Below, one piece after another: positions 23,467-35,865 of a stretch of 35,865 nucleotides of DNA (its first letter is position 1; the number at the start of each line of letters is the position of its first letter). This DNA comes from an uncultured archaeon (GTDB lineage Archaea > Nanobdellota > Nanobdellia > Pacearchaeales > GW2011-AR1). Below the pieces are notes generated by a model, which saw only the letters and a program-made list of their open reading frames with translations, made no database searches and was not told the origin of the DNA. The stretch lies in assembly GCA_903831045.1 (NCBI GenBank), contig CAIKWG010000004.1:1-35865 (forward strand). Reading direction: 5' to 3'. The position numbers and the translations under genes are program-made.

Positions 23467-23591
23467 TGATCCTGCACGGATTTGAACCGTGGACCCCTGC
23501 CTCTCTTAGAATTTCTTCTGTGAGAAGATATAACCCTAATGGATTACACTCATATAAGAGCAGTGCTCTAACCAGGCTGAGCTACAGGATC
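23467..23591 (-). tRNA. tRNA-Ile(TAT) with 50-nt intron (intron 23503..23552) at canonical position 37/38
   Basis: Acceptor gatcctg/caggatc + A73; D arm gctc/gagc; anticodon stem ctgct/ggcag; ctta pairs with intron taag giving a bulge-helix-bulge; T arm cacgg/ccgtg. Confidence 0.88.
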
Positions 23592-25345: not shown

Positions 25346-27058
25346 ATGGTGTTTAAAAAATATTTCTTAGTGGTAGGTTTGTTGCTAATTGTTTCTATAA
25401 ACTTTGCTTCTGCAGTTTTGATTTCAGATGATCTACATTTGAATATTCAGGTGCTCGATTCTGGTGGCGATGTTCTAACCGGAACCTATAATTTTGCTTT
25501 TAATATTTCAACAACTTCAAATTGTGCAAGTGTAATTTATACTGATTCTCCAACTTTAACAACTGATTCAAGAGGGATAATTTCTTATTATCTTAGAAAT
25601 GTTTCCTTGGATTATAATAATCAATATTGGCTTTGTTATTACAGAAATAATTTGTTGATTAACACTTCTCAAATTGCGAGAGTGCCTTATGCTTTTAGAG
25701 CTAGAAACGTAACTATGTCTGGTATTGAAGTAGACCAGAATTTAAACATGGGCAGTTACAACATAACTGCCCCCTACTTCTTTGGAGATGGCTCTAGTTT
25801 AACTGGAATAACTGGAAATCAAATAAATAATACTTTGAATTGGATAAATGCTTCAGCTGTTAATGGAAGTTATTACCTAATTTCAAATCCCTATGGATTT
25901 TATAATTCAACTAGTCTTGCCAATCTTTCTCAACTAGTGGATGATTTGGGAAACAGAGGTTATACTTCTCTTTCTAATTTCACAGATAATCTTGGAAGCA
26001 GAGGATACACTCATCTGACAAATTTTACAGATAATTTGGGAAACAGAGGTTATACCTCTTTGAGTAATTTTTCAAATAATCTTGGTTTTTATAATTCTAC
26101 TAATTTACCATCTTCTGTTAGTGGAGAAGGGGTTGCAGGATATGTTGCCCTTTGGAATGGGACAAATAGTTTGAATAGTTCGGTTGTTTCTCAACTTGGA
26201 GTAAATGTGGGTATTGGAACTGCTTCACCCGCTGCAAGATTGGATGTTAGAACTGGAGCAAATGATTCTATTTTGGCTAGTTTTGGTGTTGATGCAAATA
26301 ACAGGATTTCTCTTTATGATTATGAAACTGGAGGCTTTAGGTCTATTTATGCGATTGATGATGGAAACTATGGAAGCTTGAATCTAGGTCATGGTACTTC
26401 TCCCTACTTGTTTATTAAAACTGGGGGAAATGTTGGTATTGGAACAGCAAATCCTTTGGAAAAATTAGAAGTTTCTGGTAGAGTTAATTCTTCTGTTGAT
26501 TTTTGTATTACTGGTGGAAACTGTTTGAGTGACTCAATTATGGGTGGTTCTGAAACAGACCCACTTTGGACTTCTAACTCAAGTACTGTTTTAAATTGGA
26601 ACAAAACTTATGCAGATAATCTTTATTATGGACTGGCTAATTCCTATGGCTATTACAATTCAACTAGTTTGACTAGTTTATCTCAACTTACAGATAATCT
26701 AGGGAATAGAGGTTATACACATCTATCAAATTTCACAGATAACATTCTTTGGACTTCTGGATTTAATTCAACTGGAGATTCAAGATGGTTGACTTCCTAT
26801 ACTGAAACTGACCCGCAGTGGAGTTCTAATTATTCCAATGTTGCTTTTATTAACAAGGCAAACAGTTTCGGAGCTTATAATCAATCCTTCAATACTAATA
26901 CATTATTTATTGATTCTTCAAATTCAAAAGTTGGAGTTGGAACAACCAATCCTCAGCAACAATTAGATGTTGTTGGAAATGCAAATGTAACTCAAAATTT
27001 GAGTGTTGGAAATTCTACAATTTATACAAGAGGGGGGGACATGGTTTTTAGAGTTTAA
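25346..27058 (+). CDS. Fibre A: secreted tail-fibre/adhesin-like protein
   Basis: Signal peptide; 'FGDGSSLTGI'; 'NVGIGTASPAARLDV', 'NVGIGTANPLEKLEV', 'KVGVGTTNPQQQLDVVGNANVTQNL'. Confidence 0.85.
   Translation: MVFKKYFLVVGLLLIVSINFASAVLISDDLHLNIQVLDSGGDVLTGTYNFAFNISTTSNCASVIYTDSPTLTTDSRGIISYYLRNVSLDYNNQYWLCYYRNNLLINTSQIARVPYAFRARNVTMSGIEVDQNLNMGSYNITAPYFFGDGSSLTGITGNQINNTLNWINASAVNGSYYLISNPYGFYNSTSLANLSQLVDDLGNRGYTSLSNFTDNLGSRGYTHLTNFTDNLGNRGYTSLSNFSNNLGFYNSTNLPSSVSGEGVAGYVALWNGTNSLNSSVVSQLGVNVGIGTASPAARLDVRTGANDSILASFGVDANNRISLYDYETGGFRSIYAIDDGNYGSLNLGHGTSPYLFIKTGGNVGIGTANPLEKLEVSGRVNSSVDFCITGGNCLSDSIMGGSETDPLWTSNSSTVLNWNKTYADNLYYGLANSYGYYNSTSLTSLSQLTDNLGNRGYTHLSNFTDNILWTSGFNSTGDSRWLTSYTETDPQWSSNYSNVAFINKANSFGAYNQSFNTNTLFIDSSNSKVGVGTTNPQQQLDVVGNANVTQNLSVGNSTIYTRGGDMVFRV
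25938..26083 (+). repeat. ~45-bp tandem repeat (15-aa unit GYTSLSNFTDNLG[SN]R) in fibre A
   Basis: NRGYTSLSNFTDNLGSRGYTHLTNFTDNLGNRGYTSLSNFSNNLG. Confidence 0.8.
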
Positions 27059-27059
27059 A

Positions 27060-27653
27060 ATGGAAGAAAAGGAATTTATCATTTTTGGCAGTAAGAAAAT
27101 AAGAAGAGTTTTGCATAATGAAGAATGGTTTTTTTCTATTGTTGATATAATTGAAGTTTTAACTGATAGCGATAGGCCAAGAAAATATTGGAATAAATTA
27201 AATCAAAGGCTGAGAGAAGAGGGAAGTGAGTCGGTAACATTTTGTCACCAACTGAAGTTAAAGGCTTCAGATGGAAAGGAATATCTAACAGATTGTGCAA
27301 ATTTGAAAGGAATATTTAGAATTATTCAATCTGTTCCTTCTAAGAAAGCTGAGCCTTTGAAAAGATGGTTAGCTAAAGTTGGTTATGATAGAATTCAAGA
27401 ATATAGATTAAAAAATAATAAGAAAAAAGCCATTAAAATAGCTTCAATGGTAAAGCATAAAGTCTCCACAAACTTTAATTTTAATAGAGACAATAACTAT
27501 ATAAATTTTTCTGTTTATACTAATTTGCAGAGGCAAGCCCTGATAGCTTCAATGGTAAAGCACCGATCTAATGAATCGGGTCTCCACAGACATCTGGGTT
27601 CGATTCCCAGTCAGGGCGCCTCTGTTTTTTCTATTGTTGGAGGTGAAAAATGA
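27060..27653 (+). CDS. BRO1: Bro-N domain antirepressor-like protein, C-terminally truncated and replaced by tRNA-derived sequence
   Basis: Homologous to BRO2 until 'KRWLAKVGYDRIQE', then diverges into frame across two tRNA-like segments. Confidence 0.8.
   Translation: MEEKEFIIFGSKKIRRVLHNEEWFFSIVDIIEVLTDSDRPRKYWNKLNQRLREEGSESVTFCHQLKLKASDGKEYLTDCANLKGIFRIIQSVPSKKAEPLKRWLAKVGYDRIQEYRLKNNKKKAIKIASMVKHKVSTNFNFNRDNNYINFSVYTNLQRQALIASMVKHRSNESGLHRHLGSIPSQGASVFSIVGGEK
27438..27473 (+). repeat. Degenerate tRNA-derived copy lacking the anticodon arm
   Basis: atagcttcaatggtaaagca (20/20 identical to 27543-27562) + taaa + gtctccaca (9/9 identical to 27580-27588). Confidence 0.8.
27496..27505 (+). 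promoter_or_regulatory. TATA-like box for the tRNA-like gene
   Basis: ctatataaat, ~32-40 bp upstream of the tRNA-like 5' end. Confidence 0.45.
27537..27618 (+). tRNA. Type II tRNA-like gene, apparent anticodon AAT, G73, long variable arm; isotype uncertain (Ser-like body)
   Basis: gccctga/tcagggc 7 bp; gctt/aagc; ccgat-ctAATga-atcgg; variable arm gtct-ccac-agac; ctggg-ttcgatt-cccag; flanks cagaggc/gcctctg extend the stem; followed by tttttt. Confidence 0.75.
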
Positions 27654-29587
27654 ATAGCCAAAGGTTACAAGGACCTCTGCGAGGAACTAAATTAATCTTT
27701 TCTTTAGTTTTTGGAATGTTCTTGATTGGAATGGTAAGTGCTGGAAATTATGTTTTTGAGAATACTTCTGGAACTGAGCTGATGAAGATTTATGGACAAA
27801 ATGGAAATGTAAGTATTTTGGGAGACTTGAATGTTGGGGGAGATATTTATGGAGCAGTTTATGGTGTATGGAATGGTTCTTCTGATTATTATCTAAAATC
27901 AAATCCTTTTGGATTTTTTAATTCAACTAGTTTGAATAGTTTATCTCAACTGATAAACGATTTGGGAATTGGAAATTGGACTCTTGACAAATCAAATTAT
28001 TATAATTCTAGTCAAGTTGATAGTGCTATCTCAAGTGCAAATACTTCAATAAAAAATTATGCTGATGGAGCTTTCATCACTAAAGCAAATGAAGGAAATC
28101 TAAATGTTAATAGTTCTACCTATTGGGCAGGATTAAATTCTGTTTATGGTATTAGGGGTTCACAAATTAATAACGACTTGAATTGGGTAAATGCTTCAAC
28201 TGTTGGAGGAAGTTATTATTTAATCACAAACCCCTACGGATTTTATAATTCAACAACTCTTCAAAATTTATCTCAGTTAAATGATAATCTGGGAAATAGA
28301 GGTTATACCTCTTTGAGTAATTTTACTAATAATCTTAATTTTATTAATTCTACATACAATTCAACCTACGATTTAACTTCAAGAGATGTTACAGCAAATA
28401 GGAGTATTTGGGAGTCAACATACAATGCAACTTATAATACCTGGGCATACAATCAAACAACCGCTGCAATGTTAATTGCGAATGATACTTTCATAAAAAA
28501 GACGGGAGATAATGGAACAGGAGAATATAATTTTAATAATGGTTGGACAAATGGTGGACTGAGTATTAGAAGCGGAGATTTGTATGCACAAAGTCTGTAT
28601 GTTTATAACATTAGTTCATTACAAGTTTCTAATTTGAATATTAATGGTTCTCTTTTACCTTACAACGGATTTGATAATCAATTTGATGTTGGTTCTCCTT
28701 CTCTAAGATGGAATGATGCATATTTTGGGGGGAATCTATACATCAATGGAACAATTTACAATTCAAATGGGTTGCCTGTTAATGGAAATGTAACTGGAGC
28801 TGGAAGTGCGAACAGAGTTACTTTCTGGAATGGAGGAAGTTCAATAACTTCTGAAGATAATTTAACTTGGGATAGCACAAATAAAAGATTGGGAATTGGA
28901 ACTACGAGTCCTTCTTATTCTTTACATATTTCAAAATCTCAAGATTCTCTTACCAGAATAAAATTAGATAATGATAATAATGGAACTTCGGCGCAAGTTG
29001 GTTTAGAATTAGATAATAACGTTGGACAAAGTTTGTGGACATTGTATAGTTCTAATTATGCTACTACTGCATTACAAAATACTACTCTTTTTGGAAGCGG
29101 TGTTGGAGGATATATCTTTAGAGGATACACTGGAAGTTCTATTAAATTTGGAATAGGTGCAACTACTGCTGGGATGTCTAATGCCCTAACAATTGATTCA
29201 AACAGTAATGTAGGTATTGGAACAACAAATCCTCAAAACACATTAAATGTTGTTGGAACAGCAAACGTAACCACAAATCTTACCTCTCCTCTTATTTATA
29301 CTTACAAAGCTTCTGGAGGAACATATTGGAATAATGGATTGAAAGTTATTAGAGATGGAACTCCAACTCAATATGGTATAATTAATTATGACGGGGGAGC
29401 ATTAAGATTGGGAGCAATTGTTGAGGGTGGAGGAGCTTCTGGAGAAATTTATTTTGATAGACATAATGCGGGTTCTGGAACTGTAAGTACAAGTATGGTA
29501 ATTAATGGAACTGGTTCTGTGGGAATCAATACAACTTCGCCTTCGGCGAAATTACATGTAAAGGGGGATGTAATAATTGAATTGTAA
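27650..29587 (+). CDS. Fibre B: secreted tail-fibre/adhesin-like protein
   Basis: MNSQRLQGPLRGTKLIFSLVFGMFLIGMVSAGN leader; 'RLGIGTTSPSYSLHI', 'NVGIGTTNPQNTLNVVGTANVTTNL', 'SVGINTTSPSAKLHV'. Confidence 0.87.
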   Translation: MNSQRLQGPLRGTKLIFSLVFGMFLIGMVSAGNYVFENTSGTELMKIYGQNGNVSILGDLNVGGDIYGAVYGVWNGSSDYYLKSNPFGFFNSTSLNSLSQLINDLGIGNWTLDKSNYYNSSQVDSAISSANTSIKNYADGAFITKANEGNLNVNSSTYWAGLNSVYGIRGSQINNDLNWVNASTVGGSYYLITNPYGFYNSTTLQNLSQLNDNLGNRGYTSLSNFTNNLNFINSTYNSTYDLTSRDVTANRSIWESTYNATYNTWAYNQTTAAMLIANDTFIKKTGDNGTGEYNFNNGWTNGGLSIRSGDLYAQSLYVYNISSLQVSNLNINGSLLPYNGFDNQFDVGSPSLRWNDAYFGGNLYINGTIYNSNGLPVNGNVTGAGSANRVTFWNGGSSITSEDNLTWDSTNKRLGIGTTSPSYSLHISKSQDSLTRIKLDNDNNGTSAQVGLELDNNVGQSLWTLYSSNYATTALQNTTLFGSGVGGYIFRGYTGSSIKFGIGATTAGMSNALTIDSNSNVGIGTTNPQNTLNVVGTANVTTNLTSPLIYTYKASGGTYWNNGLKVIRDGTPTQYGIINYDGGALRLGAIVEGGGASGEIYFDRHNAGSGTVSTSMVINGTGSVGINTTSPSAKLHVKGDVIIEL

Positions 29588-29588
29588 A

Positions 29589-30443
29589 ATGAAAAAAGAA
29601 ACTCATATAGCAATTTTTAATGGAAAATTAATAAGAAGAAAATTTATTGGAAATAAATGGTTTTTTTCTATTATAGATATTGTTGGAGCTTTAACAGATA
29701 GTACTCTTCCTAAAAGATACTGGGCTGATTTAAAAACAAAATTAGAAGAAGAAGGTTTTGAATCGTACGATAAAATCGTACAGTTGAAATTATTAGCAGA
29801 GGATGAAAAATTAAGAGAAACGGACTGTGCAGATACAGAGGGGATATTTAGAATTATTCAATCCATTCCTTCTAAGAAAGCCGAACCTTTCAAAAGATGG
29901 TTAGCTAAAATGGGTTATGAAAGGGTTCAGGAGATTGAAAATCCAGAATTAGCTCAGGAAAGAATGAAAAAACTTTATGAATTAAAAGGATATTCTAAAG
30001 ATTGGGTTGATAAAAGATTAAGAGGTATTGCAATTAGGCAAAATCTCACTGATGAATGGAAGGAAAGAGGATTAAAAGAAGAAATAGAATATGCAATTTT
30101 AACTGATGAAATAAGTAAGGCAACATTTGGTAAAACTGTGAAAGAATATAAAGCAATTAAAAATCTTGATAAAGAAAATTTAAGAGATCATATGGATGAA
30201 CTTGAATTAATCTTTGGGATGTTGGGTGAAAAGGTTGCCACAGAAATAACTGTGACTAAAGATGCTCAAGGATTTGTTGAATGTGCTGTTGCTGCAAAAC
30301 AAGGTGGAGAAGTTGCAGGAAATGCAAGAAAAGAAGCAGAAGGAAAAATAGGACATTCAGTTGTTTCAGAAGATAACTTTCTTTCAATTTCTGAACGGAA
30401 GAAGAAAAAGAAGAAAATTTTAATTGAGGTGAAAAATGAATAA
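29589..30443 (+). CDS. BRO2: full-length Bro-N domain / phage antirepressor-like protein
   Basis: 'NKWFFSIIDIVGALTDSTLPKRYWADLK', 'DTEGIFRIIQSIPSKKAEPFKRWLAKMGYERVQEI', C-terminal 'VAAKQGGEVAGNARKEAEGKIGHSVVSEDN'. Confidence 0.87.
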   Translation: MKKETHIAIFNGKLIRRKFIGNKWFFSIIDIVGALTDSTLPKRYWADLKTKLEEEGFESYDKIVQLKLLAEDEKLRETDCADTEGIFRIIQSIPSKKAEPFKRWLAKMGYERVQEIENPELAQERMKKLYELKGYSKDWVDKRLRGIAIRQNLTDEWKERGLKEEIEYAILTDEISKATFGKTVKEYKAIKNLDKENLRDHMDELELIFGMLGEKVATEITVTKDAQGFVECAVAAKQGGEVAGNARKEAEGKIGHSVVSEDNFLSISERKKKKKKILIEVKNE

Positions 30444-33400
30444 CCAACGGTTACAAGGACCTCTTCGAGGAAATAAATTAATTATTTTGATTATTGGAAT
30501 TATTTTTAGTATTTTATTATTAGGGATGATAAGTGCTGCAAATGATTTTATAATTAGAAATCAATCTAATTCTGCACAGAATTATCTTGTTGTTAATGGA
30601 ACAAATGGAAACACCTATGCAAATCTTTACGGAACATGGAATGGTTCTTCGGATTATTATTTAAAATCAAATCCTTATAATTTTTTGAATGCTACAACTG
30701 TATCTGGAGTTTATGTTCCATACGTTGGCTCAAATGCAAATGTTGCTTTAGGAGATTATAATTTTTCTGTTGGAACTTCTGATTTTTTTGTTAATAGTAA
30801 TATAGGAAATGTAGGTATTGGAACTACTAGTCCAGGAACACCACTTCAAATTTCAAATACTGCTGCTTATGGTTCTGCTACAAATGATATAATTTCTATA
30901 CGTTCAACTTTTACTGGTGGTACAGCAAGTAATCCAAGTAGTTTAGGTGGAATATATTGGCAAGGTTTAGGAGATACTGGAACAAAAGCTAGAATAAATG
31001 TTGTAGCAGATGACTTGACTACTGATTCATCAAGTCATATGGAGTTATGGACCACTAATGGTGGAACATTAGCAGAGAGAATGAGAATATCAGCAACTGG
31101 AAATGTTGGAATTGGAGCAACAGCTCCGCAGCAAGCACTTGATGTACGAGGAGTTGCAGCAATTAATGGGGGGGCTCTTTATGCCTCAACTAATAATAAA
31201 TTATTACCTGGAGCATTAAATATTGGAGATACTGGTCGTAGTTATGGTGGGGGAACTAATTGGAATACAAATACTGCAGGTTTATTAATGGAGACATTAG
31301 AGAACACAGAAATAGCGGTTCATGATAATGGAGACCGAATTGCAAGTTTAATGTATTTTGAGGGGGGTAGTACAAATAAAATTACTCTTGGTAGAGATAT
31401 GGGTTGGGGAGTAACTCCAGTAACTATTGCTGGAGCTTTAACTGTTACTGGAACTTTTGATCCTAATGGAGCAATTACTTTGCCGACAACAGGAATTAGT
31501 GGAGCTGGTGCAGGTTCTGGTCTAGACGCCGATACATTAGATACATTACATGCATCTTCTTTTACAAGAGAATATGTTACAAGCATTGGAGGATTTAGTA
31601 GTGCGGGTTATACTAACATTGCGTATGTTGAAGGAGGAGCATTAAACAGTAAAATAAAATTAACCTTGGGAGGAACAGCAAACGGAGTTGTAGTAGATAT
31701 GACTGCAGATATTATTGTTCAACATAGTTATGATATATATGTTCGTTCTGAATCTGGAAGTTATACTATCGTGACTTTGAAAATTACAAGTGATGCAAAT
31801 CAAAATTTTTATATTCAAGCAAAAATAGACAGTGCCCAATCAACAACTTTAGCTTGTAGAATTTATACTTATGGTGGGGAAACAGTTACATGGGCTCCAG
31901 GTTCTGTTAGTGGGGTAACTTCTCTTGAACACGTTGCTTACTCGATGCAACTTAGTATTTCTGCCTCTGGAGGAGATGCAGCCGGAATGAAAATAAGTGG
32001 AAATACTGTTTGGCATGCAGGTAATGATGGAACAGGAACTGGTCTCGACGCGGATTATTTAGACGGGCATGATACTTCATATTTTCAAACAGCAATTACA
32101 AATTTAGATATTACTGGATATATTAGAACAAGTCAAGGTTCTGGAGGAGTTACTTTATCTGGTGATTCATCTCCTGATTTAGGATTTGTAGGTTATAATT
32201 ATCTTAATAACGCTGGAACAGAAACAGTTGGACAATCAGGAAGAACATCCTGGAGATGGAAATTTGCTAATGGTGCAAGTCCTGGAGCGTACTTAGATTA
32301 TCGTGCGGCTAGCGCTGCTCCTGGAACTTTTTCAAATTATATGTTTGTTGCAAATGATGGTAAGGTTGGAATTGGAACAACTGCTCCAGGAGCATTGCTT
32401 GATGTTGCTACTGCTTCTTATCTTTCTACAAATTATCCATTTAGAGTAAAAAATAGTGGATATTCATATCCTCATGTTGCTTATGATACTGCTGTTATCC
32501 AACAAGATGATGTGACAACAATGAGATTAGTAGAATATAACAACGGAGGGACAAATCAAGAATTGGGGTTGAGCGTAGGAGATGGTTACAGTGAAATAAC
32601 TTCAACTGTTCCATTAAGATTTTATGGAAGTGCTACCCCCGGTGGAACAATTTATAGTGGGTCTGGGGGTACACTTGCTTTGGCGATAAATGGTGGGAAT
32701 GTTGGAGTTGGAACAACTGCTCCATTAAATAAATTAGATGTTGTTGGAACAGCTAATGTAACAAATGGTGTTCATGGAAATGTATATGAAAGAATTAATT
32801 CTTATGGTACTAGAATTGTAAATCCTATGGGAGGGACTTATTTTACAACAGCAGATACAGTTACTGGAGCTATTGCAATTTCACTTCCAACTAAAGTATC
32901 TGATGCAATGATTAGTTTTTGGGTAGATATTTATGATTATTCAAATCAAGAAACATTTTCTGTGTTTGTATCTGGTTATCCTTATTCAAGTGCTGGGGTT
33001 TGGTCTTATACTAGTGCAATGATTTTAGGTACTAATTCAAACAGAAATTTTAATGTAAGATTTGGGGGTTCTAATGATAATCTTCATTCTATTGTTTATA
33101 TTGGAGAAACTACTTCTACTTGGAATTATCCTCAGATAACTATAAGAGATGTTACTTCGGGATATAATACTGCTGTAAATGAAATGGATAATCTTCCTTG
33201 GGCAATTACTTTTGAAACAACTTTATTAAATGTTGGTGCTACTCAAACTGCTAATTTCCCATACGCTGATTGGAATAAAATTGTTAATATGCCTGCAGTT
33301 ATAGATGGTGCTGGAACAGCTAATTACATTCCTAGATGGACTGATGCTAATACTCTGACTAATTCTATTATTTATGATAGTGGAACAAATGTTGGTATTG

Positions 33401-35865
33401 GAACAACTGCCCCGAGTTATTTGCTTCATCTTAAAAATACTGCTGATGCCGCACAAATAGCTCTAGATACAACTGGTCGTTGGTCACAGATTGATTTTAC
33501 AAATGCAGGAGTACAAAAGGGAGCAATATGGTATGATAATGTTAATAATGAAGTTGTTATTGATGCTGCAGTGGCATCGTCGAAGTTGAAATTTTATACT
33601 GCAAATTCAGTCAGAATGACTCTAGATGCAGCAGGAAATGTTGGTATCGGAACAACTGCACCTGGTGCTAAATTAGAAGTTGAAGGGATTTCTGCTGCAT
33701 GGAATCCTACAACCCCCGGTTTAGGAACTGGTTCAATACATATTGATCCAGGTGTGGATACAGACAATTATGGTGGTGCAATTACTTTTGGTGCAAGTGA
33801 TAGTAGTTCTGGTGATACTGCTCAAGCTGGAATTTATACTCGTACCGACGGAAGTTATGGAACAAAAATGTATTTTGCAACTACTAATTCTTATTCTGCT
33901 GGTTCAACTACCGCGATGATGATCAATGAGGCAGGTAACGTCGGTATTGGAACAACTGACCCTGGAGTTTTTAAAACTAAAATTGTTCAACCTCCTAGTT
34001 CTGGAGCCTATGGATTGCAAGTTATTGCAGGAAATACAGTGACAGATGTTGTGGCTCAGTTTAGTGGAAATGCTGGAGTTCTATCACAAGGTATGACAAT
34101 TATGCAAGATGGAAAAGTTGGAATTGGAACAGACACCCCTGGAAAATTATTATCTTTATACAGCGCGGGAAATAATATTGACACCGGTGGTGTGTTTAGG
34201 ATAGTAGGAAATTCTGCAGGAGATACACTAGAATTGGCAGTTCAAGATACATTAACAAGATTACAACATACAGAAAGTGCTGCAGATGCAGCGGCGGGTT
34301 ATGGACTTATACAATTTAAAACCAATGCTGTTTCTACTCCTGCTAGTCCGACAATTGGAGGTTTTAGATGGACAACAGGTAGTGCTGATGTTATGGCTAT
34401 TACTAATACGGGAAATGTAGGAATTGGAACAACTGCTCCTGATTATACTTTGGATGTTGCAGGAAGTATTGGAGCTGATGGAGGAATTTATTCTGGAGGA
34501 TATTTGGTTGCAACTGCTGGAACGGATAATCTTTTATTAAACGGAGATTTTGAAATGGGTCTAACTGGATGGAGTGGATTTCAAGCTACTACAACTACTG
34601 CTTATTCGGGAAATCTTGCAGGACAGGCAACTGGAGACCGAACTATTTTGAGTGAAGATTATATTCCTGTTGACCCTAAGTATGATGTTTTCCAACTTGA
34701 AGCGTATTTTAGAAAAACAGTTGCTGGTTCAAGCCCGGGAGTTATGTATTTTGGTTATATTGCCTATGATGCGAACAAAGCTGGAATTTATACTTCTCCT
34801 TGTGGGACTTATTGTTATTTTGGTGGAGCGGGTTATGCAATTCCTGCCGACGGAAACTGGCATAAATTTAGTGCAACAACAACTGGTGAAGGAACTGCAT
34901 CTCCAAATTTCCCTGTTGGAACAAAGTTTATTCGAGTTCTTGTATTAATTAATTATCAATCATCAGCGGATTCAGTAACAGTGATGGATCATGTTTCATT
35001 AAAGAAAATAAATAATGGACCTTTATTTGTTGGAAATAATTTTGCTTCAACTAATATGCTTGATCAATATCAAGTTACACAGTTATATACAGATAGTTCA
35101 AGTCAATTAAACATTGATACTCCTGGAACTGGTTTAGTAAATATTCTTGGAGGCGGATTGAGTGTTTCAGGAGAAAATAAAGAAATAAGATTAACTGGAG
35201 GGACATACACTGCCACATCTCTTACCGACGGTGGAACAGGAGATCCAGGATATCTCTCTTTGTATTATTATGGAACAAAATATTTTAGTATTGGAGCTGG
35301 GGATACTTATTTTAATTATGGTAGCGTTGGAATTGGAGATGCAACTCCAGATTATTTATTAGATGTTGCAGGAACAATTGGTGCTGATAATTATATTTAT
35401 TCTGCTAGTTATGTCCAAGCTGCTGGAGCATTATATACTGGTGGTCCAATATATCGTACTGCTGCTGGAACAGGTTATCTAAATGGGGGATATCCTACTT
35501 ATGAATCAGCAACTACTTCTGGTGCAATTTATACAATTGGAGGAAGTTATGTTCCTGGAGCTTCAGATTTAGGAAATATGTATGGTATTGGATATGGTTA
35601 TAGTGGACAAGCAGGAATTGGAGCTACAGGAGCTGTTGCTAGTCATTGGGGAATGTATGTAGCCAGCAACGGTAATTCTAGAATATTTTTAGATTCAGAT
35701 GTAGGAAGCATTTATCTTAATGGTGCTTATAATGGTGCAGGAACCGGATTGACTGGAACTGCTGCAAGTTTGACTGCAGGTTATGCAACAAATTCTGCTG
35801 CGCAAGATATTTCTTTAGTTACCACTGGGGGAACAGTCGTAACAGGTAATACTGTAACATATACT
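30436..35865 (+). CDS. Fibre C: giant tail-fibre/adhesin-like protein, >=1810 aa, continues past window end
   Basis: Read manually: ATG at 30436 with MNNQRLQGPLRGNKLIILIIGIIFSILLLGMISAAN leader, coding continues to the last base; about ten '(N/K)VGIGTTAP...LDV' motifs. Absent from the ORF track, presumably because there is no stop in the window. Confidence 0.85.
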   Translation, partial: MNNQRLQGPLRGNKLIILIIGIIFSILLLGMISAANDFIIRNQSNSAQNYLVVNGTNGNTYANLYGTWNGSSDYYLKSNPYNFLNATTVSGVYVPYVGSNANVALGDYNFSVGTSDFFVNSNIGNVGIGTTSPGTPLQISNTAAYGSATNDIISIRSTFTGGTASNPSSLGGIYWQGLGDTGTKARINVVADDLTTDSSSHMELWTTNGGTLAERMRISATGNVGIGATAPQQALDVRGVAAINGGALYASTNNKLLPGALNIGDTGRSYGGGTNWNTNTAGLLMETLENTEIAVHDNGDRIASLMYFEGGSTNKITLGRDMGWGVTPVTIAGALTVTGTFDPNGAITLPTTGISGAGAGSGLDADTLDTLHASSFTREYVTSIGGFSSAGYTNIAYVEGGALNSKIKLTLGGTANGVVVDMTADIIVQHSYDIYVRSESGSYTIVTLKITSDANQNFYIQAKIDSAQSTTLACRIYTYGGETVTWAPGSVSGVTSLEHVAYSMQLSISASGGDAAGMKISGNTVWHAGNDGTGTGLDADYLDGHDTSYFQTAITNLDITGYIRTSQGSGGVTLSGDSSPDLGFVGYNYLNNAGTETVGQSGRTSWRWKFANGASPGAYLDYRAASAAPGTFSNYMFVANDGKVGIGTTAPGALLDVATASYLSTNYPFRVKNSGYSYPHVAYDTAVIQQDDVTTMRLVEYNNGGTNQELGLSVGDGYSEITSTVPLRFYGSATPGGTIYSGSGGTLALAINGGNVGVGTTAPLNKLDVVGTANVTNGVHGNVYERINSYGTRIVNPMGGTYFTTADTVTGAIAISLPTKVSDAMISFWVDIYDYSNQETFSVFVSGYPYSSAGVWSYTSAMILGTNSNRNFNVRFGGSNDNLHSIVYIGETTSTWNYPQITIRDVTSGYNTAVNEMDNLPWAITFETTLLNVGATQTANFPYADWNKIVNMPAVIDGAGTANYIPRWTDANTLTNSIIYDSGTNVGIGTTAPSYLLHLKNTADAAQIALDTTGRWSQIDFTNAGVQKGAIWYDNVNNEVVIDAAVASSKLKFYTANSVRMTLDAAGNVGIGTTAPGAKLEVEGISAAWNPTTPGLGTGSIHIDPGVDTDNYGGAITFGASDSSSGDTAQAGIYTRTDGSYGTKMYFATTNSYSAGSTTAMMINEAGNVGIGTTDPGVFKTKIVQPPSSGAYGLQVIAGNTVTDVVAQFSGNAGVLSQGMTIMQDGKVGIGTDTPGKLLSLYSAGNNIDTGGVFRIVGNSAGDTLELAVQDTLTRLQHTESAADAAAGYGLIQFKTNAVSTPASPTIGGFRWTTGSADVMAITNTGNVGIGTTAPDYTLDVAGSIGADGGIYSGGYLVATAGTDNLLLNGDFEMGLTGWSGFQATTTTAYSGNLAGQATGDRTILSEDYIPVDPKYDVFQLEAYFRKTVAGSSPGVMYFGYIAYDANKAGIYTSPCGTYCYFGGAGYAIPADGNWHKFSATTTGEGTASPNFPVGTKFIRVLVLINYQSSADSVTVMDHVSLKKINNGPLFVGNNFASTNMLDQYQVTQLYTDSSSQLNIDTPGTGLVNILGGGLSVSGENKEIRLTGGTYTATSLTDGGTGDPGYLSLYYYGTKYFSIGAGDTYFNYGSVGIGDATPDYLLDVAGTIGADNYIYSASYVQAAGALYTGGPIYRTAAGTGYLNGGYPTYESATTSGAIYTIGGSYVPGASDLGNMYGIGYGYSGQAGIGATGAVASHWGMYVASNGNSRIFLDSDVGSIYLNGAYNGAGTGLTGTAASLTAGYATNSAAQDISLVTTGGTVVTGNTVTYT

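Follow-up and report, generated by a model that had tools for sequence, protein, structure and literature searches.

A serine-type tRNA with an isoleucine anticodon and a predicted antisense partner: a candidate all-RNA toxin–antitoxin unit in archaeal genomes

What is a tRNA gene with an isoleucine anticodon and a serine-like body doing inside a truncated BRO gene of an archaeon? We examined this question in a 35,865-nucleotide stretch of archaeal DNA (hereafter the window, meaning the whole stretch analysed), in which a first-pass annotation had described a type II tRNA-like gene with an AAT anticodon. That description was upheld. The sequence at 27537–27618 on the plus strand formed a complete cloverleaf, matched Rfam RF00005 with 53.1 bits (E = 7.6e-9; gathering threshold 29) and was called tRNA-Ile(aat) by ARAGORN. 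All stems paired as claimed (acceptor GCCCTGA/TCAGGGC, D GCTT/AAGC, anticodon CCGAT/ATCGG, the 4-bp variable arm GTCT/AGAC, T CTGGG/CCCAG), base 73 was G and the anticodon loop was CTAATGA. The TATA-like box and the run of six T residues reported on either side were also found, the latter at 27625–27630. None of the alternative pairings of the anticodon arm yields an ordinary anticodon, and a score at pseudogene level was absent; the compensatory changes in the stems of homologues rule out a decayed pseudogene. G73 and the Ser-type variable arm likewise exclude the possibility that the software misread an ordinary tRNA-Ile or tRNA-Leu. The AAT tRNA occurs as a single full copy in the 821-kb, 83%-complete genome, and AUU makes up 5.0% of the codons in ten ORFs of the window.

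The Ser-like body was corroborated by G73, by the pairs G1:C72 and C2:G71, and by a variable arm of Ser geometry. The same bases were present in all 22 units of the family described below and matched host tRNA-Ser; host tRNA-Leu has A73. No unit carried a Ser anticodon (0/22), and all had T at position 33. In the aligned sequences the variable stem directly follows the anticodon stem and is itself followed, in most units, by two unpaired bases, a layout that we read as the host’s Ser geometry. In E. coli and Thermus, the identity of tRNA-Ser is carried by the discriminator base, the acceptor stem and the variable arm; charging is not specified by the anticodon, and in yeast a tRNA-Ser with a proline anticodon was lethal (PMC6827378). 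Because the identity elements are kept and the anticodon is not read for charging, charging with serine is expected for the window’s tRNA, and likewise for the tRNAs of the other units; serine at AUU, which had been foreseen for a Ser-charged molecule, would be the expected consequence.

Whether the host has its own tRNA-Ile(GAT) and a full serine set had been raised at the outset, and the answer was mixed. The window’s genome contained tRNA-Ile(GAT), an intron-containing tRNA-Ile(TAT), tRNA-Ser(GCT) and tRNA-Ser(TGA). The genes for tRNA-Ser(GGA) and tRNA-Ser(CGA) were not recovered from this assembly and, since it is 83% complete, may simply be unassembled. The tRNA-Ile(TAT) gene (23467–23591, minus strand; Rfam 54.3 bits) has an intron of about 50 nt and was missed by an ARAGORN run without introns; AUA in archaea is usually decoded by a CAU anticodon.

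Searching 200 genomes of the order at the DNA level returned clear homologues of the unit, and covariance models were built from seven sequences and then, for promoter plus tRNA, from 17. In all, the 183 genomes of the window’s family (Pacearchaeota/Nanoarchaeota) yielded 22 units in 18 genomes, the window’s own and 21 others. None turned up outside the family in a sample of 371 genomes taken from across the phylum, and the unit was absent from the 10 other genomes of the window’s genus. The host genomes are MAGs of uncultured archaea. The anticodons were AAT (five units), CAA (four), GAT (four), CAT (three), GAA (two), TAA (two) and GTC (two), such that 20 of the 22 units read NUN codons (Ile, Leu, Phe or Met). 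In the seven-sequence alignment, 98% of cells were paired and 14 of 25 pairs showed two-sided changes; for the 17-sequence alignment the values were 96% and 20 of 25, compared with 35–44% and 3–6 pairs in slid controls. The anticodon stem was among the most freely covarying parts. Lower covariance-model matches that we inspected (G046, G082, G194, G220, G337 and others) were plain tRNA-Ser genes. One unit, G032, was degenerate, as were G170c and G173, which carry inserts in the T arm of 54 nt (locus L107, 8937–9090, contig G170:C19) and about 18 nt (L159, G173:C39), respectively; these are decayed copies or introns. A viral source found no footing: the only D-arm match in viral contigs was an ordinary phage tRNA-Lys, two further patterns found nothing there, and phage records gave weak tRNA matches only.

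The annotated extent of 27537–27618 held for the tRNA, whereas the whole unit is larger and runs from about 27408 to 27632 (Table 1). In a repeat search, the D arm (20/20 bases) and the variable arm (11/12) proved to be duplicated about 100 bp 5' of the tRNA, with the anticodon arm missing between the two copies. This arrangement recurred in the family. In 20 units the D copy was located between -89 and -99 relative to the tRNA. In G099b, where it stands at -113, a copy of the anticodon arm is retained, and the copy in G109 is rearranged and covers that arm. Each upstream copy was closer to its own tRNA than to the tRNAs of most other units, and this held for the variable loops as well. In minus-strand orientation the copy resembles a short gene for an antisense RNA. 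The first-pass annotation had overlooked this putative minus-strand gene, the promoter region common to both genes, the family with its seven wrong anticodons and the insertion-like distribution.

Table 1. Positions of the unit’s predicted and observed features within the window.
Feature	Position	Strand	Basis or remark
Truncated Bro-N ORF, the 3' part of which is the element	27060..27653	+	PF02498, 42.9 bits
T tract on minus (A-rich on plus) after the terminator hairpin; left end of unit	27408..27429	-	Boundary via empty site at another locus
Predicted antisense RNA (candidate antitoxin), about 55 nt; start near 27477, end at hairpin and U tract	27420..27477	-	
Terminator hairpin of the antisense RNA, CCATTGAAGCTATTTTAATGG on minus	27430..27450	-	
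Anti-D segment, copy of D arm, 20/20 identical	27438..27457	-	Anticodon arm absent between anti-D and anti-V
Anti-V segment, copy of variable arm, 11/12 identical	27462..27473	-	Sole difference G.U-compatible
TATA box, TATATAAA / TTTATATA, placed for both strands	27498..27505	.	Host promoter and spacing comparison
BRE-like sequence CAGAAAAA adjoining TTTATATA	27506..27513	-	Fits common host promoter form
Extended helix, 5' strand GCAGAGGC; predicted tRNA transcription start about 27526–27527	27527..27534	+	Own-versus-swapped pairing
Ser-body type II tRNA, anticodon AAT, predicted toxin RNA	27537..27618	+	ARAGORN, RF00005, compensatory changes across homologues
Anticodon AAT within loop CTAATGA (27568–27574)	27570..27572	+	AAT also in four other units
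Extended helix, 3' strand (G73 and CCTCTGT), then T run	27618..27625	+	

We compared the predicted antisense RNAs with the tRNAs of their own and of other units. In 18 of 18 units tested the antisense RNA paired best with its own tRNA (0/20,000 permutations were as good), although this test largely restates the sequence similarity of copy and tRNA. Mean duplex energies were -46.4 kcal/mol for own pairings and -28.4 kcal/mol for all pairings, and the gains on cofolding were -17.6 and -2.7 kcal/mol; for the window’s antisense RNA the gain was -26.3 kcal/mol with its own tRNA and -11.3 kcal/mol with the best host tRNA. Differences between copy and tRNA in the D region were mostly those that preserve G.U pairing (tRNA G to copy A, T to C) rather than the opposite transitions (23:8, p = 0.004, for 31 changes with units taken as independent and the misplaced G109 alignment included). 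Such a bias points to pairing with a minus-strand RNA and is predicted neither by a sense-strand function nor by plain duplication. When D and V regions were pooled in trimmed local alignments of 19 units the bias was weaker (23:13, p = 0.13), mainly because C>T changes, which make up ten of the 13 contrary ones, recur at the end of the variable arm by the predicted start.

The evidence specific to an antisense gene is this wobble bias together with the form of the minus-strand promoter and the terminators. The block CAGAAAnnTTTATATAGT, as read on the minus strand, was present in the majority of the order’s genomes, clearly more often than its reversed control. Its orientation was taken from 30 loci, at which a minus-strand ORF started within 110 nt in 16 and scattered plus-strand starts were found in nine; several of the minus-strand starts lay at 37 nt from the block, as for leaderless genes. 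A role of the TTTTCTG block in a plus-strand promoter is therefore less likely. From the minus-strand promoter, the antisense RNA is predicted to begin a few bases ahead of the anti-V segment. The TATA box also lies about 28–30 bp before GCAGAGG on the plus strand, the spacing expected for a tRNA transcript that starts there, and the TATA boxes of host tRNAs are mostly at -29 to -38 from the tRNA. The TATA region between the two putative genes has TATA-to-start spacing on both sides. A minus-strand terminator was scored where a hairpin of 4 kcal/mol or more preceded a tract with 7 or more T in 10. Terminators of this kind were found in 14 of 22 units, compared with 3 of 300 windows placed at random in these loci, and the remaining eight units had no terminator hairpin by that criterion.

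The tRNA side of the unit has a further structure. Outside the acceptor stem a second helix, GCAGAGG/CCTCTGC, joins leader and trailer, and it recurs in compensatory versions (GCCGAGA/TCTCGGC, GCGGATG/CATCCGC). The leader and trailer of the same unit paired better than swapped ones (0/20,000 permutations), and a T-rich stretch follows the helix on its 3' side in many units. We read the helix as part of a structured precursor.

We then considered the sites at which the units are found. The tRNA had been placed inside a BRO gene, and the ORF is indeed a truncated Bro-N: its similarity to an intact paralogue (29577–30443) stops at residue 114, just before the unit, which replaces the 3' part of the gene. 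A conserved link with BRO genes was nevertheless ruled out because the neighbours differ between units, the others lying in or beside unrelated genes. Several were in or beside large surface-protein genes, and several lay in frame inside such ORFs. We also rejected a conserved encoded peptide; one frame is open inside several ORFs, but the intergenic copies in G031 and G097 have frameshifts or stops, indicating that the constraint is not on a protein. The G031 unit adjoins a small gene, which we take to be UPF0235-like, on one side and an ASCH-domain gene on the other. G030, a close relative of G031 (neighbouring protein 92% identical), has an empty site at that locus. The 8-bp sequence AATGAAAA, present in a single copy in G030, flanks the G031 unit as a direct repeat; this is suggestive only, because the sequence is A-rich. 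At the same locus a decayed unit seems to persist in G028, and the interval is missing from G033. In two different genera, units with a TAA anticodon (L084/L137 in G031, L088/L139 in G097) come after what is apparently one and the same small gene, and this points either to an old insertion that was kept or to repeated homing to one site.

Solitary copies of the antisense type, with no tRNA of their own, were seen at L134 (G013:C54), L073 (G014:C35), L156 (G138:C34) and L159 (G173:C39). These orphan copies pair better with the tRNAs of other loci than with the adjacent tRNA, and the one in G014 best fits the tRNA of G104 and that of the window. They may be remnants or protective antitoxins.

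That a conserved unit of tRNA and antisense gene exists is, in our judgement, very probable, and the parts that the sequences support are a Ser-body tRNA, its wrong anticodon and a putative divergent antisense gene specific for that tRNA. Both components are predicted to be non-coding RNAs. We consider it probable that the unit is a self-contained all-RNA (type VIII-like) toxin–antitoxin element of about 200 bp. On the fuller proposal our opinion is evenly divided: a mobile addiction element of that size, in which a Ser-charged tRNA with the wrong anticodon would be the toxin and a divergent antisense RNA the antitoxin, spreading by insertion within one DPANN family and diversifying through changes of anticodon and pairing sequence. 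Both RNAs would be transcribed, and SerRS, reading G73 and the variable arm but not the anticodon, would charge the tRNA with serine. The charged tRNA would insert serine at AUU, and in the relatives at Leu, Ile, Phe, Met or Asp codons; miscoding of mostly hydrophobic codons would poison the proteome. The antisense RNA would invade the D and V arms, unfold the tRNA and bulge out the anticodon arm, so that the tRNA could be neither charged nor used. If the unit were lost, the stable tRNA would outlive the short antisense RNA, and the cell would therefore be addicted to the unit.

Other readings of the tRNA share part of this anatomy. It could be a structured RNA with no part in translation, controlled by the antisense RNA and acting as a decoy for an anticodon nuclease, as a serine carrier for another enzyme or as part of a mobile element; the extended leader/trailer helix, unusual for a tRNA, and the insertion-like behaviour fit such a role. 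We consider it unlikely, since the anticodon stem-loop is intact, with T33 in all units and covarying stem pairs, and the Ser identity elements are kept in every unit. Regulated and possibly useful mistranslation would predict the same anatomy as a toxin: the antisense RNA would release the Ser tRNA under some condition, and serine at hydrophobic codons would tune or diversify proteins. Some systems are reported to tolerate mistranslation by tRNA-Ser or even to benefit from it, and several units are found within or next to large surface-protein genes, which speaks for this reading. The patchy occurrence (18/183 genomes, with 10 genus-mates lacking the unit), the seven anticodons, the decay and the one empty site nevertheless favor a selfish module, and we consider regulated mistranslation unlikely.

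The upstream copy, too, can be read in other ways. It could be functionless, left behind when a mobile tRNA gene underwent local duplication or gene conversion; its resemblance to the downstream tRNA and the extra copies in G013, G014, G138 and G173 fit such an origin. This reading is made improbable by the nearly constant spacing, by the lack of the anticodon arm in almost all copies, by the terminator hairpin with U tract, by the promoter form and by strand-asymmetric substitutions. Least credible, and in our view very improbable, is a sense-strand RNA mimic or DNA operator for a protein that also binds the tRNA. Many copies do retain a palindrome and the V hairpin; however, the copy varies between units and yet tracks its own tRNA, loops included, where a protein site would be conserved, and the wobble bias again speaks for pairing with a minus-strand RNA.

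Several known systems come close to the unit. CreTA of haloarchaea, of type VIII, is an all-RNA toxin–antitoxin with translation as its target, in which CreT acts through tRNA by sequestering a rare one and CreA, a crRNA-like guide, needs Cascade to repress the creT promoter (PMC9458426, PMC8501985). The present unit would likewise combine an RNA toxin and an RNA antitoxin in an archaeon and strike translation. In contrast to CreT, its toxin candidate is the intact tRNA itself. Its antitoxin candidate appears to be a plain antisense RNA, predicted to consist of anti-V, anti-D and a terminator hairpin that varies between units; a handle derived from degenerate CRISPR repeats, as in CreA, was not apparent. 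Type I and cis-antisense antitoxins (hok/sok type; SdsR/RyeA) are short antisense RNAs with an intrinsic terminator that pair with the toxin transcript, and type I toxins are proteins made from mRNA. The predicted short antisense RNA and terminator are alike here, whereas the target is a tRNA and the pairing skips the anticodon arm. The unit’s tRNA also resembles the mistranslating tRNA-Ser variants of yeast and fly in its Ser body and in a foreign anticodon that SerRS does not read. At full strength mistranslating tRNA-Ser is lethal (PMC6827378). Those variants are engineered or mutant alleles, whereas the unit is a conserved locus with its own predicted antisense gene. Allo-tRNAs have 8/4 or 9/3 upper stems. 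They had been cited as a precedent, which proved a loose one: the long Ser-like variable arm and the odd anticodon are shared, whereas the unit alignments show the 7-bp acceptor and 5-bp T stem of an ordinary Ser tRNA, with neither allo-tRNA geometry, as well as a paired leader and trailer and an antisense partner.

A literature search of incomplete coverage returned neither a tRNA described as a toxin nor an antisense gene dedicated to a tRNA gene. If our proposal is true, it adds a toxin principle to all-RNA modules, namely harm through rewriting of the genetic code at a dose set by an antisense RNA. It would also provide a set of naturally occurring Ser tRNAs that bear foreign anticodons, and would allow a test of which mistranslations are selected in nature for doing the most harm, given that 20 of 22 units target NUN codons. 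Annotation would be affected as well, as such genes, which software calls tRNA-Ile or tRNA-Leu, may not be ordinary decoders.

Two observations concern the surroundings of the units. At L070, L071, L107 and L142 the units lie in frame in very large surface-protein ORFs, in which Hint- or intein-like motifs such as LEDGSELVVSEKHRVYV were noticed by eye. In the window, 25346–35865 (plus strand) holds repeated cassettes of tail-fibre- or adhesin-like ORFs (GIGTTxP repeats) that alternate with Bro-N genes, and over 62 nt the start region at 27640 shares 90% identity with the one at 30426.
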